A DNA stretch of 64,000 nucleotides from Bacillota bacterium (GTDB taxonomy: Bacteria > Bacillota > Sulfobacillia > JAJZYS01 > JAJYTV01), in assembly GCA_021799275.1 (NCBI GenBank), contig JAJZAT010000001.1, forward strand, positions 97,431 to 161,430, given 5' to 3'. Positions 27,102-32,720 of the stretch are shown piece after piece. A program made the translations under genes and the position numbers. The notes under the pieces were generated by a model. That model made no database searches. It was given only the letters and a program-made list of their open reading frames with translations, and had not been told where the DNA came from. Every line of letters begins with the position of its first letter. Positions within the stretch are counted from its first letter, which is position 1.

Positions 27102-27764
27102 CTAGCGGTTCAGGTCCTGGCGCTCGCCCGACACCATGAAGATCACCGACTCGCCCAGGTTGGTCGCGTGGTCGGCCACGCGCTCGAGGTGCTGGGCGAC
27201 GAACAGCAGGTGGGTGCCCTGATGGATGGTGCGAGGGTCCTCCATCATGTAGACGAGCAGTTCGCGCATCACCTGGCTGTAGAGGTGGTCTACCTCATCG
27301 TCGGTCTTGAGGAGTTCCTCCGCGGCCTGCGGGTCGCGGCGGACGTAGGCGCGAAGCGCGTCGCGCGTCATGCGCAAGGCGAGTTCCGCCATGCGCGGAA
27401 TGTCGATGAGGGGCTTCATCAGGGGCTCGTCGCCGATGCGCTCCGTGACGCGCGCGATGTCCACGGCGTGGTCGGCCATGCGCTCGAGGTCGCCCACGAT
27501 CTTGATCGCGGTCCCCACGATGCGCAGGTCCGAGGCGGCGGGCTGCTGCAGCGCGATGATCTCGAGACAACGCGTCTCGATGTCGAGCTGCATGCGATCG
27601 ATCTCGTCGTCGCCCTCGACGATCTGGTGCGCGAGGTCGCGGTTGCCCTCCGCGAGCGACTTGACCGACTGTCCGATCCGCTCCTCCACGAGCGTACCCA
27701 TGCGCAGGATATCCTGCTGCAACTCCTCCAGTTCCTGATGGAACGTGCTGCGCACCCTAGGCAC
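27102..27764 (-). CDS. phoU: phosphate signalling protein PhoU
   Basis: MPRVRSTFHQELEELQQDILRMGTLVEERIGQSVKSL ... LERMADHAVDIARVTERIGDEP ... HLERVADHATNLGESVIFMVSG. Confidence 0.96.
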   Translation of the reverse strand: MPRVRSTFHQELEELQQDILRMGTLVEERIGQSVKSLAEGNRDLAHQIVEGDDEIDRMQLDIETRCLEIIALQQPAASDLRIVGTAIKIVGDLERMADHAVDIARVTERIGDEPLMKPLIDIPRMAELALRMTRDALRAYVRRDPQAAEELLKTDDEVDHLYSQVMRELLVYMMEDPRTIHQGTHLLFVAQHLERVADHATNLGESVIFMVSGERQDLNR

Positions 27765-27770
27765 TCCCTT

Positions 27771-28529
27771 CTAGCCGAACCGCCCCGTGACGTAATCCTC
27801 CGTCCGGCGGTCGCGCGGTCGCGTGAAGATGTCCCTCGTGGGCCCGAACTCTATGAGCTCCCCGCTGAGGAAAAAGGCGGTGTGATCCGAGATGCGTCCT
27901 GCCTGCTGCATATTGTGCGTCACGACGATCAGCGTGTAGTTCTCCTTGAGCGATTCCGTCAGCTCCTCGATCTTCGCCGTCGCGACGGGATCGAGCGCGG
28001 AGGCGGGCTCGTCCATCAGGAGAACCTCCGGTTCCACCGCCAGGGCCCGGGCGATGCAGAGCCGCTGCTGCTGGCCACCGGAGAGTTCGAAGGCGCTTTT
28101 CTGCAGCTTGTCCCGCACCTCGTCCCAAAGCGCCGCGCGCCTGAGGCTCTGCTCCACGATCTCCCTGAGGCGCGCCTCGGAGCGCTGCCCGTGCACCCTC
28201 GGTCCGTAGGCGATGTTCTGGTAGATCGTCATGGGAAACGGGTTCGGGCGCTGAAAGACCATGCCCACGCGCTTGCGCAGCCGGGCCGGGTCCTGGCTGC
28301 GCGCATAGATGTCCTCGCCGTCCAGCAGCACCTTTCCGGTGATGCGCGCGCCGGGAACATGGTCGTTCATGCGGTTCAGGGTGCGCAGGAAGGAGGACTT
28401 GCCGCAGCCGCTCGGGCCGATGATCGCCGCGACGGTGTGTTCCTGGATCTCGACGCTGACATCCTTAAGCCCCAATGCTGAACCGTACCAGAGGCTGAGG
28501 TTCTCCACGCTGATCTTCGCAGCACTCAA
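27771..28529 (-). CDS. pstB: phosphate ABC transporter ATP-binding protein PstB
   Basis: [108 protein letters not shown]. Confidence 0.97.
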
Positions 28530-29278
28530 CGGAGCCTACCCTCCCGTCGCTCTCCAGCCAGCACCGCCGCCACGCCCGCCGCAACCGCGGACAGGAGCAG
28601 CAACAGGGCGGCTGGCCAGAAGGCCCGCGCATCACGGAGCCTGCCTGTGATCTCAAGATACCATAGCGCCGATGCCAAGGTGGTGCCGGCCTGCAGGGCA
28701 AGCCTGCCGCGTTCCAGGAGCCCCTGCGCCAACAGCGCAACGAGCGCCGCCTCGCCGAGCGCGCGTCCGGCCACCCCGAGCAGGATGCCCACGAGTTCGC
28801 GCCGCACGAAGCCGTATACGGCCGTCGCCACCTGGCTAGGCCGCGCCCCCAGGGCCTGTGCCGCCTCTCCCGTCGCCCGGCAGCGGTCGAAGCTCTCCTG
28901 CGCGAGCAGCACGGTCTGGGGCAGGCAGAGGAGCGCGAGGCCCGCCGCGACGAGGCCGATGCCCGGCGAGAGGCCGAACGCATCGCCCAGCCAGCGCAGC
29001 ATGACCGCCCCGACCACGACACTCGGCAGGGCCGCGCTCACGCTCAGCGGCCCGCGCCAGCGAGAGCCTCCAGGGCTGAACGCAAGGGTGCCGCCCGCCG
29101 CCACCCCGAGAGCCGCGCTCGCCGCCACGGCCGTCAGCGCCGTGACCACGCTCGCGACGAGGGAGCCCATGTCGGGGGGGCCAATGGGCCGACCGACGCC
29201 GGCCAGCACGCCGATCCAGACGAGAAGCGGCAGAAGTTGCGTCAGGCGGTAACGGGCGATGCCTCGTCTATAGGCCAT
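28526..29278 (-). CDS. divergent PstA-like ABC transporter permease
   Basis: [24 protein letters not shown]... multi-[51 protein letters not shown] permease EAA-like loop; stop overlaps pstB start. Confidence 0.75.
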
Positions 29279-30766: not shown

Positions 30767-30789
30767 AGGCAGCCCTCCGCGCTCCCGAC

Positions 30790-32046
30790 CTATGCATCGG
30801 TGGCCTTGGCCATGCCCGGTATGCGCAGGTGGAACGCACTGCCGCGCCCAAGCTCGCTCTCGACGGTCAGCTCGGCGCCGACCGAGAGCGCGAGATGGCG
30901 CGCGATGGCGAGCCCGAGTCCCGAGCCGCCCGTCGCGCGCTGGCGCGAGCGGTCCACGCGGTAGAATCGCTCGAAGATGTGCGGCAAGTCGGCCGCGGGG
31001 ATGCCGGGGCCGTCGTCCGCCACCGTCAGTTCGGCCTGGCCGGCCACGGGGCTCACCCGCACCGTGACGTGACCGCCGTCCTGCGTGTACTTGACGGCGT
31101 TGTCGATCAAGGAGATCAGGATGCCCTCGATGCGGTCGCGATCGGTGATCGCCGTGGCCGACTGGCCCTCCACCCCGAGCGCGACACCGCGCGCCTGGGC
31201 CTCGGGGCCGTAGCGCTCCGCGACCGCCCGAGCCAGCTCCAGGAGGTCCACCCGGGCCCGCTCGGGACGCTCGCGGCCGCTCTCGATCGCGGCGAGGCGC
31301 AAGAGGTCGTCGACCAGCAGCGACAGCCGCCTTGTTTCCTCCGCGATATGCCGCAGGAACCTCTGGCGGTGTCCCTCGTCCACCGCGCCGTCCAGGAGGG
31401 TCTCGGCGAAGCCCCCGAGCACCGTGAGCGGCGTCCGCAGCTCGTGCGACACGTTGGCCACGAACTGGCTGCGGACCTCGAGCAGGCGTCGCTCCTCCGT
31501 GACGTCGTGCACCACGAGCAGCGTGCCGCCCGTACCGGGCACCGGCGCGAGGTCGATCTGCAGCGTGCGACCCGCCTCGCGCCGCTCGAGCTGCAGCACC
31601 TCGCCCTTCTCCACTTCGTCCAGGGCGGACTCGAGGGCGTAGGTATGGGTCATGGCAAGGTGGTAGGTCTGCTCCACCTCCGGCGCCCAGACGCCGAAGA
31701 TGCGTTCCGCCGCCGGATTGATCACCTGCACGCGGCGGCGCGCGTCGAGCAGCACCACGCCGGCGCGCAGGTTGCCGATGATCGCGAGAAAGCGCATGCG
31801 GTCGAGCTCCAGGGCGTCGAGGCGCTCGCCGAGCTGCTGCAGCACCTCGTTGAACCTTTCCTCACGCTCGGCGAGATTGCCCTGCGGCGCGTAGAACCGC
31901 TCGGGCTGCCCGCCCGAGGAGAGCGCCGCGAGCGCCCCCAGCGCGAGGTCGAACTCGCGCAGGGCGCGCCGCCGCAGCATTACCGCCAGGACGGCGCCGA
32001 TCGCCAGCCCGGCGAGGATGCCGACGAGCAGCCAGGCGGCCGTCAC
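30790..32046 (-). CDS. phoR: PhoR-type sensor histidine kinase with PAS domain
   Basis: PAS region (RFLAIIGNLRAGVVLLDARRRVQVINPAAERIFG), [31 protein letters not shown]-box, HATPase motifs; pairs with adjacent RR in a pst operon. Confidence 0.9.
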   Translation of the reverse strand: MTAAWLLVGILAGLAIGAVLAVMLRRRALREFDLALGALAALSSGGQPERFYAPQGNLAEREERFNEVLQQLGERLDALELDRMRFLAIIGNLRAGVVLLDARRRVQVINPAAERIFGVWAPEVEQTYHLAMTHTYALESALDEVEKGEVLQLERREAGRTLQIDLAPVPGTGGTLLVVHDVTEERRLLEVRSQFVANVSHELRTPLTVLGGFAETLLDGAVDEGHRQRFLRHIAEETRRLSLLVDDLLRLAAIESGRERPERARVDLLELARAVAERYGPEAQARGVALGVEGQSATAITDRDRIEGILISLIDNAVKYTQDGGHVTVRVSPVAGQAELTVADDGPGIPAADLPHIFERFYRVDRSRQRATGGSGLGLAIARHLALSVGAELTVESELGRGSAFHLRIPGMAKATDA

Positions 32047-32720
32047 GGGGCGAAGCGGTAGCCGACGCCGCGCACCGTCTCGATCAGCCGCGGGCGCGAG
32101 GGCTCCGCCTCCACCTTCTCCCGGAGATGGCGCACGTGGACGTCCACCGTGCGCGCGTCGCCGTAATAGTCGTAGCCCCAGACCTTCTCGAGCAGCATCT
32201 CGCGGGTCAGCACCTGACCCGGCCGCTCCATCAGGGTCTGCAGCAGTCCGAACTCGGTCAGGGTCAGTTCGCGCTCACTTCCCTGCACGTAGCAGCGGTG
32301 CGCCGCGATGTCGATCTCGACGCCCCCGGCCGCCAGCCGGTCGGTCGGCGGATCGGTGCGTCTCAAGACCGCCTTGACGCGGGCGACGAGTTCGCGCGGC
32401 GAGAACGGCTTGCCGACGTAGTCGTCGGCGCCGAGCTCGAGCCCGCGCACCCGGTCCGCCTCCTCCGTGCGCGCCGTGAGCATGATGACCGGCACGCGGC
32501 TCTGGCGCCGCAGGGCGCGCAGCAGCGCGACGCCGTCCAGGCGCGGCAGCATCAGGTCGAGGAGCACGAGGTCCGGCGCCGCGTCGAGCGCCTGGCGCAG
32601 CCCCTCCTCGCCGTCCTCGGCCTGGATCACCTGGAACCCCGCCGTCTCGAGATGGAACGCCACGAGGTCGCGGATCGCTTCCTCGTCCTCAACGATCAGG
32701 ACGGTGCCCTGACGGGCCAC
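32043..32720 (-). CDS. phoP: PhoP-type response regulator (OmpR family)
   Basis: TVLIVEDEEAIRDLVAFHLETAGFQVIQAEDGEEG ... LVLLDLMLPRLDG ... RTVDVHVRHLREKVEAEPSRPRLIETVRGVGYRF; GTG start (32720 or 32723). Confidence 0.9.
   Translation of the reverse strand: MARQGTVLIVEDEEAIRDLVAFHLETAGFQVIQAEDGEEGLRQALDAAPDLVLLDLMLPRLDGVALLRALRRQSRVPVIMLTARTEEADRVRGLELGADDYVGKPFSPRELVARVKAVLRRTDPPTDRLAAGGVEIDIAAHRCYVQGSERELTLTEFGLLQTLMERPGQVLTREMLLEKVWGYDYYGDARTVDVHVRHLREKVEAEPSRPRLIETVRGVGYRFAP

Follow-up and report, generated by a model that had tools for sequence, protein, structure and literature searches.

In most bacteria a single Pst transporter carries out both phosphate uptake and phosphate signalling, and because one transporter does both jobs the two roles are hard to separate. 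The locus analyzed here raises the question of what a second, highly divergent set of PstS, PstC and PstA subunits (hereafter S', C' and A') does in a phoP-phoR operon when a canonical pstSCA set is encoded 17 kb upstream in the same window (the window being the whole 64,000-nucleotide stretch of DNA analyzed). The window's family covers 10 genomes of uncultured Bacillota, the named records being unclassified Bacillota or Clostridia metagenome assemblies, and its S'C'A' set provides a natural case for asking whether uptake and sensing are split between two transporters.

Organization of the phoPR operon and of the canonical pst genes

Seven minus-strand ORFs follow one another in the order phoP-phoR-S'-C'-A'-pstB-phoU, with the places, overlaps and lengths given in a preliminary description of this DNA. 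Its account of a second, highly divergent PstS/PstC/PstA set beside phoPR-pstB-phoU, with a normal pstSCA nearby, was borne out by profile and domain matches, and PstB and PhoU were indeed canonical. The genes of the operon and of the canonical set are as follows:

32043..32735, minus strand: phoP, response regulator (PF00072 and PF00486; best NCBIfam match PhoB, 262 bits, below cut-off)
30790..32046, minus strand: phoR, histidine kinase (PF00512 and PF02518; best NCBIfam matches PnpS, 310 bits, and PhoR, 296 bits, both below cut-off)
30029..30766, minus strand: S', divergent PstS-type phosphate-binding protein, 245 aa (PF12849, E=3.6e-15; PDB PstS matches down to 3.6e-13)
29268..30032, minus strand: C', highly divergent PstC, 254 aa (class PstC profile, 36.1 bits)
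28526..29278, minus strand: A', highly divergent PstA, 250 aa (TIGR00974, 30.6 bits; class PstA profile, 50.0 bits)
27771..28529, minus strand: pstB (TIGR00972, 401 bits, passes curated cut-off)
27102..27764, minus strand: phoU (TIGR02135, 238 bits, passes curated cut-off)
49710..50801, minus strand: canonical pstS, TIGR00975 type (346 bits, passes)
48683..49684, minus strand: canonical pstC (TIGR02138, 293 bits, passes)
47844..48686, minus strand: canonical pstA (TIGR00974, 231 bits, passes)

From the ORF coordinates, 4-bp overlaps join phoP/phoR, S'/C' and A'/pstB and an 11-bp overlap joins C'/A', with gaps of 23 bp at phoR/S' and 6 bp at pstB/phoU, so that PstB is co-operonic with S'C'A'. 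The S'C'A' reading frames are coding, with a GC3 of 0.84–0.89 and synonymous changes far exceeding amino-acid changes among four congeners. Just upstream of phoP, at 32774–33700, lies a gene which, on our own reading, presumably encodes a protein like the PEP synthase regulatory kinase/phosphatase.

S', C' and A' as PstS, PstC and PstA

The preliminary description held that S', C' and A' keep only the motif order of Pst subunits. This did not hold for S', which is PstS-type by sequence, matching PF12849 above the cut-off and pneumococcal and clostridial PstS structures in the PDB with E values of about 1e-11 to 3.6e-13. Its top NCBIfam match was PstS, with TIGR02136 giving 36 bits (under its 207-bit cut-off), and other binding-protein models were matched weakly in Pfam. 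Of the permeases, A' matched the curated models weakly, its best NCBIfam match being PstA (TIGR00974) below the cut-off, and Pfam and NCBIfam searches returned no Pst family for C'. Searches of PDB sequences with C' and A' profiles likewise gave zero matches. Class PstC and PstA profiles were built from ordinary class-member proteins with the divergent sets left out. With these, C' scored 36.1 bits to PstC vs 5.1 to PstA (best of 100 shuffles 3.5) and A' scored 50.0 bits to PstA vs 37.3 to PstC (best of 100 shuffles 2.0), identifying them as the PstC and PstA permeases, respectively. A simple hydropathy scan gave six hydrophobic membrane helices in each. The AlphaFold models of C' and A' were of low confidence (pLDDT 51 and 57), and Foldseek searches with them ranked permease chains of E. 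coli PstSCAB among the leading matches, which is weak support. A better match to a different ABC importer family, which the preliminary description had named as a refuting outcome, was looked for, but in Pfam, NCBIfam and the PDB none scored above the Pst models. Judged by sequence, S', C' and A' are genuine descendants of PstS, PstC and PstA, and the case of C' illustrates how a true PstC can escape standard family models.

For the phosphate pocket, the reference was the set of residues which we take to be the phosphate contacts of E. coli PstS (T10, S38, D56, R135, S139, G140 and T141). In the family alignment, S' T36, S64, D82, R143, S147 and G148, equivalent to the first six of these, were invariant, all six tested positions falling within the 44 invariant positions of the 245 in S' (chance 2.5e-5). 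The T141 equivalent is Leu or Val throughout the family and is the sole departure from the phosphate pocket, so that the full canonical pocket, which the preliminary description had named as a sign of ordinary paralogous transport, is nearly complete but lacks this Thr. S' (30029–30766) also differs from most class members in lacking a conserved lipobox cysteine; it starts with an N-terminal membrane helix followed by a short linker to the binding domain, and may be membrane-anchored.

Distribution and origin of the divergent set

Relatives of S' were found in 38 of the 61 genomes searched, including each of the 10 genomes that make up the window's family. Elsewhere in the class, many families have an ordinary operon that consists of phoP and phoR, then pstS, ordinary PstC, PstA and PstB genes and phoU, and the synteny search proposed earlier thus showed phoPR-pstSCAB-phoU to be common across the class. 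Insertion of a foreign set was ruled out, the gene order being class-wide. On this conserved order, S'C'A' is the class-wide operon's own set, diverged in the window's family.

Scores to the PstC profile were about 265–420 bits for ordinary members (obtained with an earlier profile version that included some family C'/A'), and 205–240 bits for G020, G045 and G050, 190 bits for G010 and 26–52 bits for the window's family (obtained with the profile rebuilt without them). Trees placed C' and A' on long branches beside the copy of G010 and apart from the canonical clade, a placement that carries a long-branch warning. In G010, of the same order, one cluster holds the canonical pstSCA followed immediately by phoPR-S'C'A'-pstB-phoU. 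In a sister family of that order (f4, genomes G012–G014), phoPR is followed directly by pstB-phoU, with S'C'A' gone and pstSCA elsewhere; the phoR/pstB gap in G012 is about 22 bp. In G020 the set is diverged and no TIGR00975 PstS is present; in G045 a second set has its own PstB-like gene. The apparent link between erosion of S'C'A' and the presence of a second pstSCA is drawn from about four lineages.

Divergence rate and selection

Within the genus (four congeners), dN/dS was 0.15–0.24 for S', C' and A', 0.11–0.24 for canonical S, C and A and 0.05–0.07 for pstB. Between the two genera of the family, S', C' and A' shared 47–56% identity (C' and A' 47–51%), and the same comparison gave 65–67% for canonical S, 74–78% for canonical C and A and 80–85% for PstB. 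Open reading frames for S'C'A' were present in 10/10 family genomes, A' of G009 being cut by contig ends. By these measures S', C' and A' are fast-evolving under purifying selection, with no decay, and their divergence has been much faster than that of PstB and PhoU.

A single PstB and PhoU, probably shared by two subunit sets

No ATPase gene was found beside the canonical set. A PstB scoring near 400 bits occurred at a single locus per genome in 10/10 family genomes, and the next-best ABC ATPase in the window's genome reached 185 bits vs 401 for PstB. Unless every draft assembly misses a second such gene, the canonical pstSCA must therefore depend on the PstB encoded with phoPR, and both subunit sets probably share this PstB. 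PhoU is also single in the window's genome, with one PF01895 locus whose two domains lie in one protein. No precedent for two Pst sets on one PstB was found in the papers searched. The window's genome further contains a third, solitary TIGR00975-type PstS (L090:5147-6208), away from the pst genes found.

PhoR and Pho-box-like repeats

PhoR has one N-terminal membrane helix at residues 6–24 by hydropathy, followed by PAS, HisKA and HATPase domains, and neither the hydropathy scan nor domain searches revealed an extracytoplasmic sensor domain. A PhoR without an external domain fits sensing via Pst and PhoU. Two direct repeats resembling a Pho box were located:

50847..50862, minus strand: Pho-box-like direct repeat TTAAC-N6-GTAAC, upstream of canonical pstS; sole exact match in the window (0 expected)
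32773..32788, minus strand: weaker copy GCAAC-N6-TTAAC, upstream of phoP; the only other match in the window at one mismatch

The same type of repeat is present in pstS promoters of relatives, and G008 carries a TTTAC/GTAAC/TTAAC triple repeat upstream of phoP. These motifs suggest that the phoPR operon and the canonical pst operon both probably belong to the Pho regulon. Elsewhere in the genome, a single further exact TTAAC-N6-KTAAC site (L101:3793-3808; C5:142792) is near the starts of two genes which, from our own reading of the ORFs, presumably encode a UvrD-like helicase and, possibly, a BacA-like undecaprenyl-diphosphatase.

Transport-path residues

In E. coli, replacement of PstA R220 or of PstC R237 or E240 by Gln blocks transport and leaves signalling intact (PMC5775613). 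In PDB alignments, R220 and R237 correspond to the Arg of an R-x-x-G-E motif (the motif Glu of PstC is residue 241 of the PDB chain by our own count and E240 in PMC5775613). Across the aligned family genomes this motif is invariant in both permeases (R172, G175 and E176 in A'; R180, G183 and E184 in C'), so that the transport-critical Arg and Glu are kept. The preliminary description had proposed that S'C'A' is specialized for sensing with the kinase rather than for bulk uptake. Loss of transport-only residues would be expected of a non-transporting sensor and the opposite was found, and the residue comparison leans against a sensor that is dead for transport.

It is canonical PstA that has Ile at the E. 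coli R220 position (alignment to 9k3x_A), and its relatives across several families have Ile, Leu, Val or Gly there. In G011 and in the G012–G014 family such a non-Arg PstA is the sole PstA type, which indicates that the Arg is not universally needed for transport; since it is dispensable in some genomes, the residue argument against a transport-dead sensor is also weakened. In the coupling loop of C', the acidic residue is lost in the window's genus and kept in the sister genus; this loss could mean weak coupling to PstB. A division of labour in which S'C'A' senses rather than transports is possible, and the sister family with phoPR-pstB-phoU and no S'C'A' indicates that a separate sensing set is not obligatory.

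Explanations for the retention of S'C'A'

The explanation that we favour, giving it about an even chance, is that S'C'A' belongs to an old Pst complex which still responds to phosphate but has handed bulk uptake over to a second set dependent on the same ATPase. Under this explanation, S'C'A' descends from the binding and membrane genes of the class-wide phoPR-pstSCAB-phoU operon and has diverged greatly in this family. Bulk phosphate uptake was most likely assumed by the TIGR00975-type pstSCA, which lacks an ATPase and would rely on the phoPR operon for PstB and PhoU; the two PstC/PstA pairs would then compete for that PstB. The S'C'A'-PstB complex would still bind phosphate and cycle, probably with low throughput, and may be kept mainly since PhoU and a PhoR devoid of an external domain read its state. 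It would perhaps be weighted towards sensing and need not be dead for transport. Coupling to the kinase is in keeping with the shared operon, the absence of an external domain in PhoR and the matching repeats before phoP and canonical pstS. Against the explanation count the replaced T141, the acid lost from the coupling loop of C' in the window's genus, the low-confidence models of C' and A', the small number of lineages behind the link between erosion and a second pstSCA, and the sets of G020 and G045. Only tentatively do we extend this to a sharper arrangement on shared PstB and PhoU, with the canonical pair serving uptake and the kinase-linked, fast-evolving pair acting as the transceptor that sets the Pho response.

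A plain second phosphate importer with other kinetics (e.g. induced at low phosphate) and no special sensing role is somewhat unlikely. The retained pocket and transport-path residues, the purifying selection and the repeats before both operons are in keeping with it, as is the kinase-linked Pst1 of S. pneumoniae, an induced transporter (PMC4913102), but S'C'A' diverges much faster than the canonical set, has lost T141 and, in the genus, the coupling-loop acid of C', and has no dedicated ATPase. That S'C'A'-PstB is a dedicated sensor, reporting phosphate to PhoU/PhoR and moving little or none, appears more doubtful: in C' and A' the residues that E. coli requires for transport but not for signalling do not vary, with R220 absent from canonical PstA instead, and three sister-family genomes carry phoPR-pstB-phoU without S'C'A'. 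Such a sensor would nonetheless suit the kinase-linked operon, the lack of an external domain in PhoR, the availability of a normal pstSCA for uptake and the separability of transport and signalling in E. coli (PMC5775613).

Drift to another ligand, such as a different oxyanion, might explain the change of T141 to Leu/Val, the extreme divergence and the weak matches of S' to other binding-protein models; given that S' and A' match PstS and PstA best among NCBIfam models, that the pocket Thr, Ser, Asp, Arg, Ser and Gly are kept and that the operon is unchanged, we consider it very improbable. Equally remote is decay of S'C'A' towards loss as in f4, whose operons lack the set (in G012 down to the short phoR/pstB gap). 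Shrinking lengths and high divergence would agree with decay; against it stand the ORFs in all ten genomes (contig ends truncating A' of G009), a dN/dS of 0.15–0.24 at every distance tested and the invariant functional residues.

Under the transceptor arrangement, uptake and sensing would be evolutionarily split while the motor stays shared. With the binding and membrane subunits doubled and diverged and the ATPase and PhoU single, uptake might be separated from signalling by swapping or deleting one subunit set, leaving PstB and PhoU as they are. Among close relatives the states are graded, from the ordinary operon to complete loss of S'C'A'.

Comparison with known Pst systems

The window shares with the PstSCAB-PhoU and PhoR/PhoB system of E. 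coli its components, a homologous pocket, the R..GE motif in the last part of both permeases and a PhoR with no external sensor domain. E. coli has one pst set, whereas the window has two PstS/PstC/PstA sets apparently acting on one PstB and PhoU, one of them diverged to the point that its PstC goes unrecognized by curated models. In the pnpRS-pst1/pst2 arrangement of S. pneumoniae, a kinase pair likewise lies just upstream of one of two evolutionarily distinct Pst systems, and PnpS is the NCBIfam model closest to the window's PhoR. The pneumococcal Pst systems each end in their own phoU, unlike the window, where PstB and PhoU are both single-copy. In S. pneumoniae the kinase is under the control of the unlinked Pst2/PhoU2, and Pst1, encoded next to the kinase, serves as the induced transporter (PMC4913102); by analogy, this precedent would run opposite to the sensing role proposed for the kinase-linked set. 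The tandem pstB1/pstB2 of E. faecalis also represents an unequal subunit duplication in a pst locus with divided roles (PMC12096839), but the duplicated subunit there is the ATPase, of which the window has one copy alongside two sets of binding and membrane subunits.
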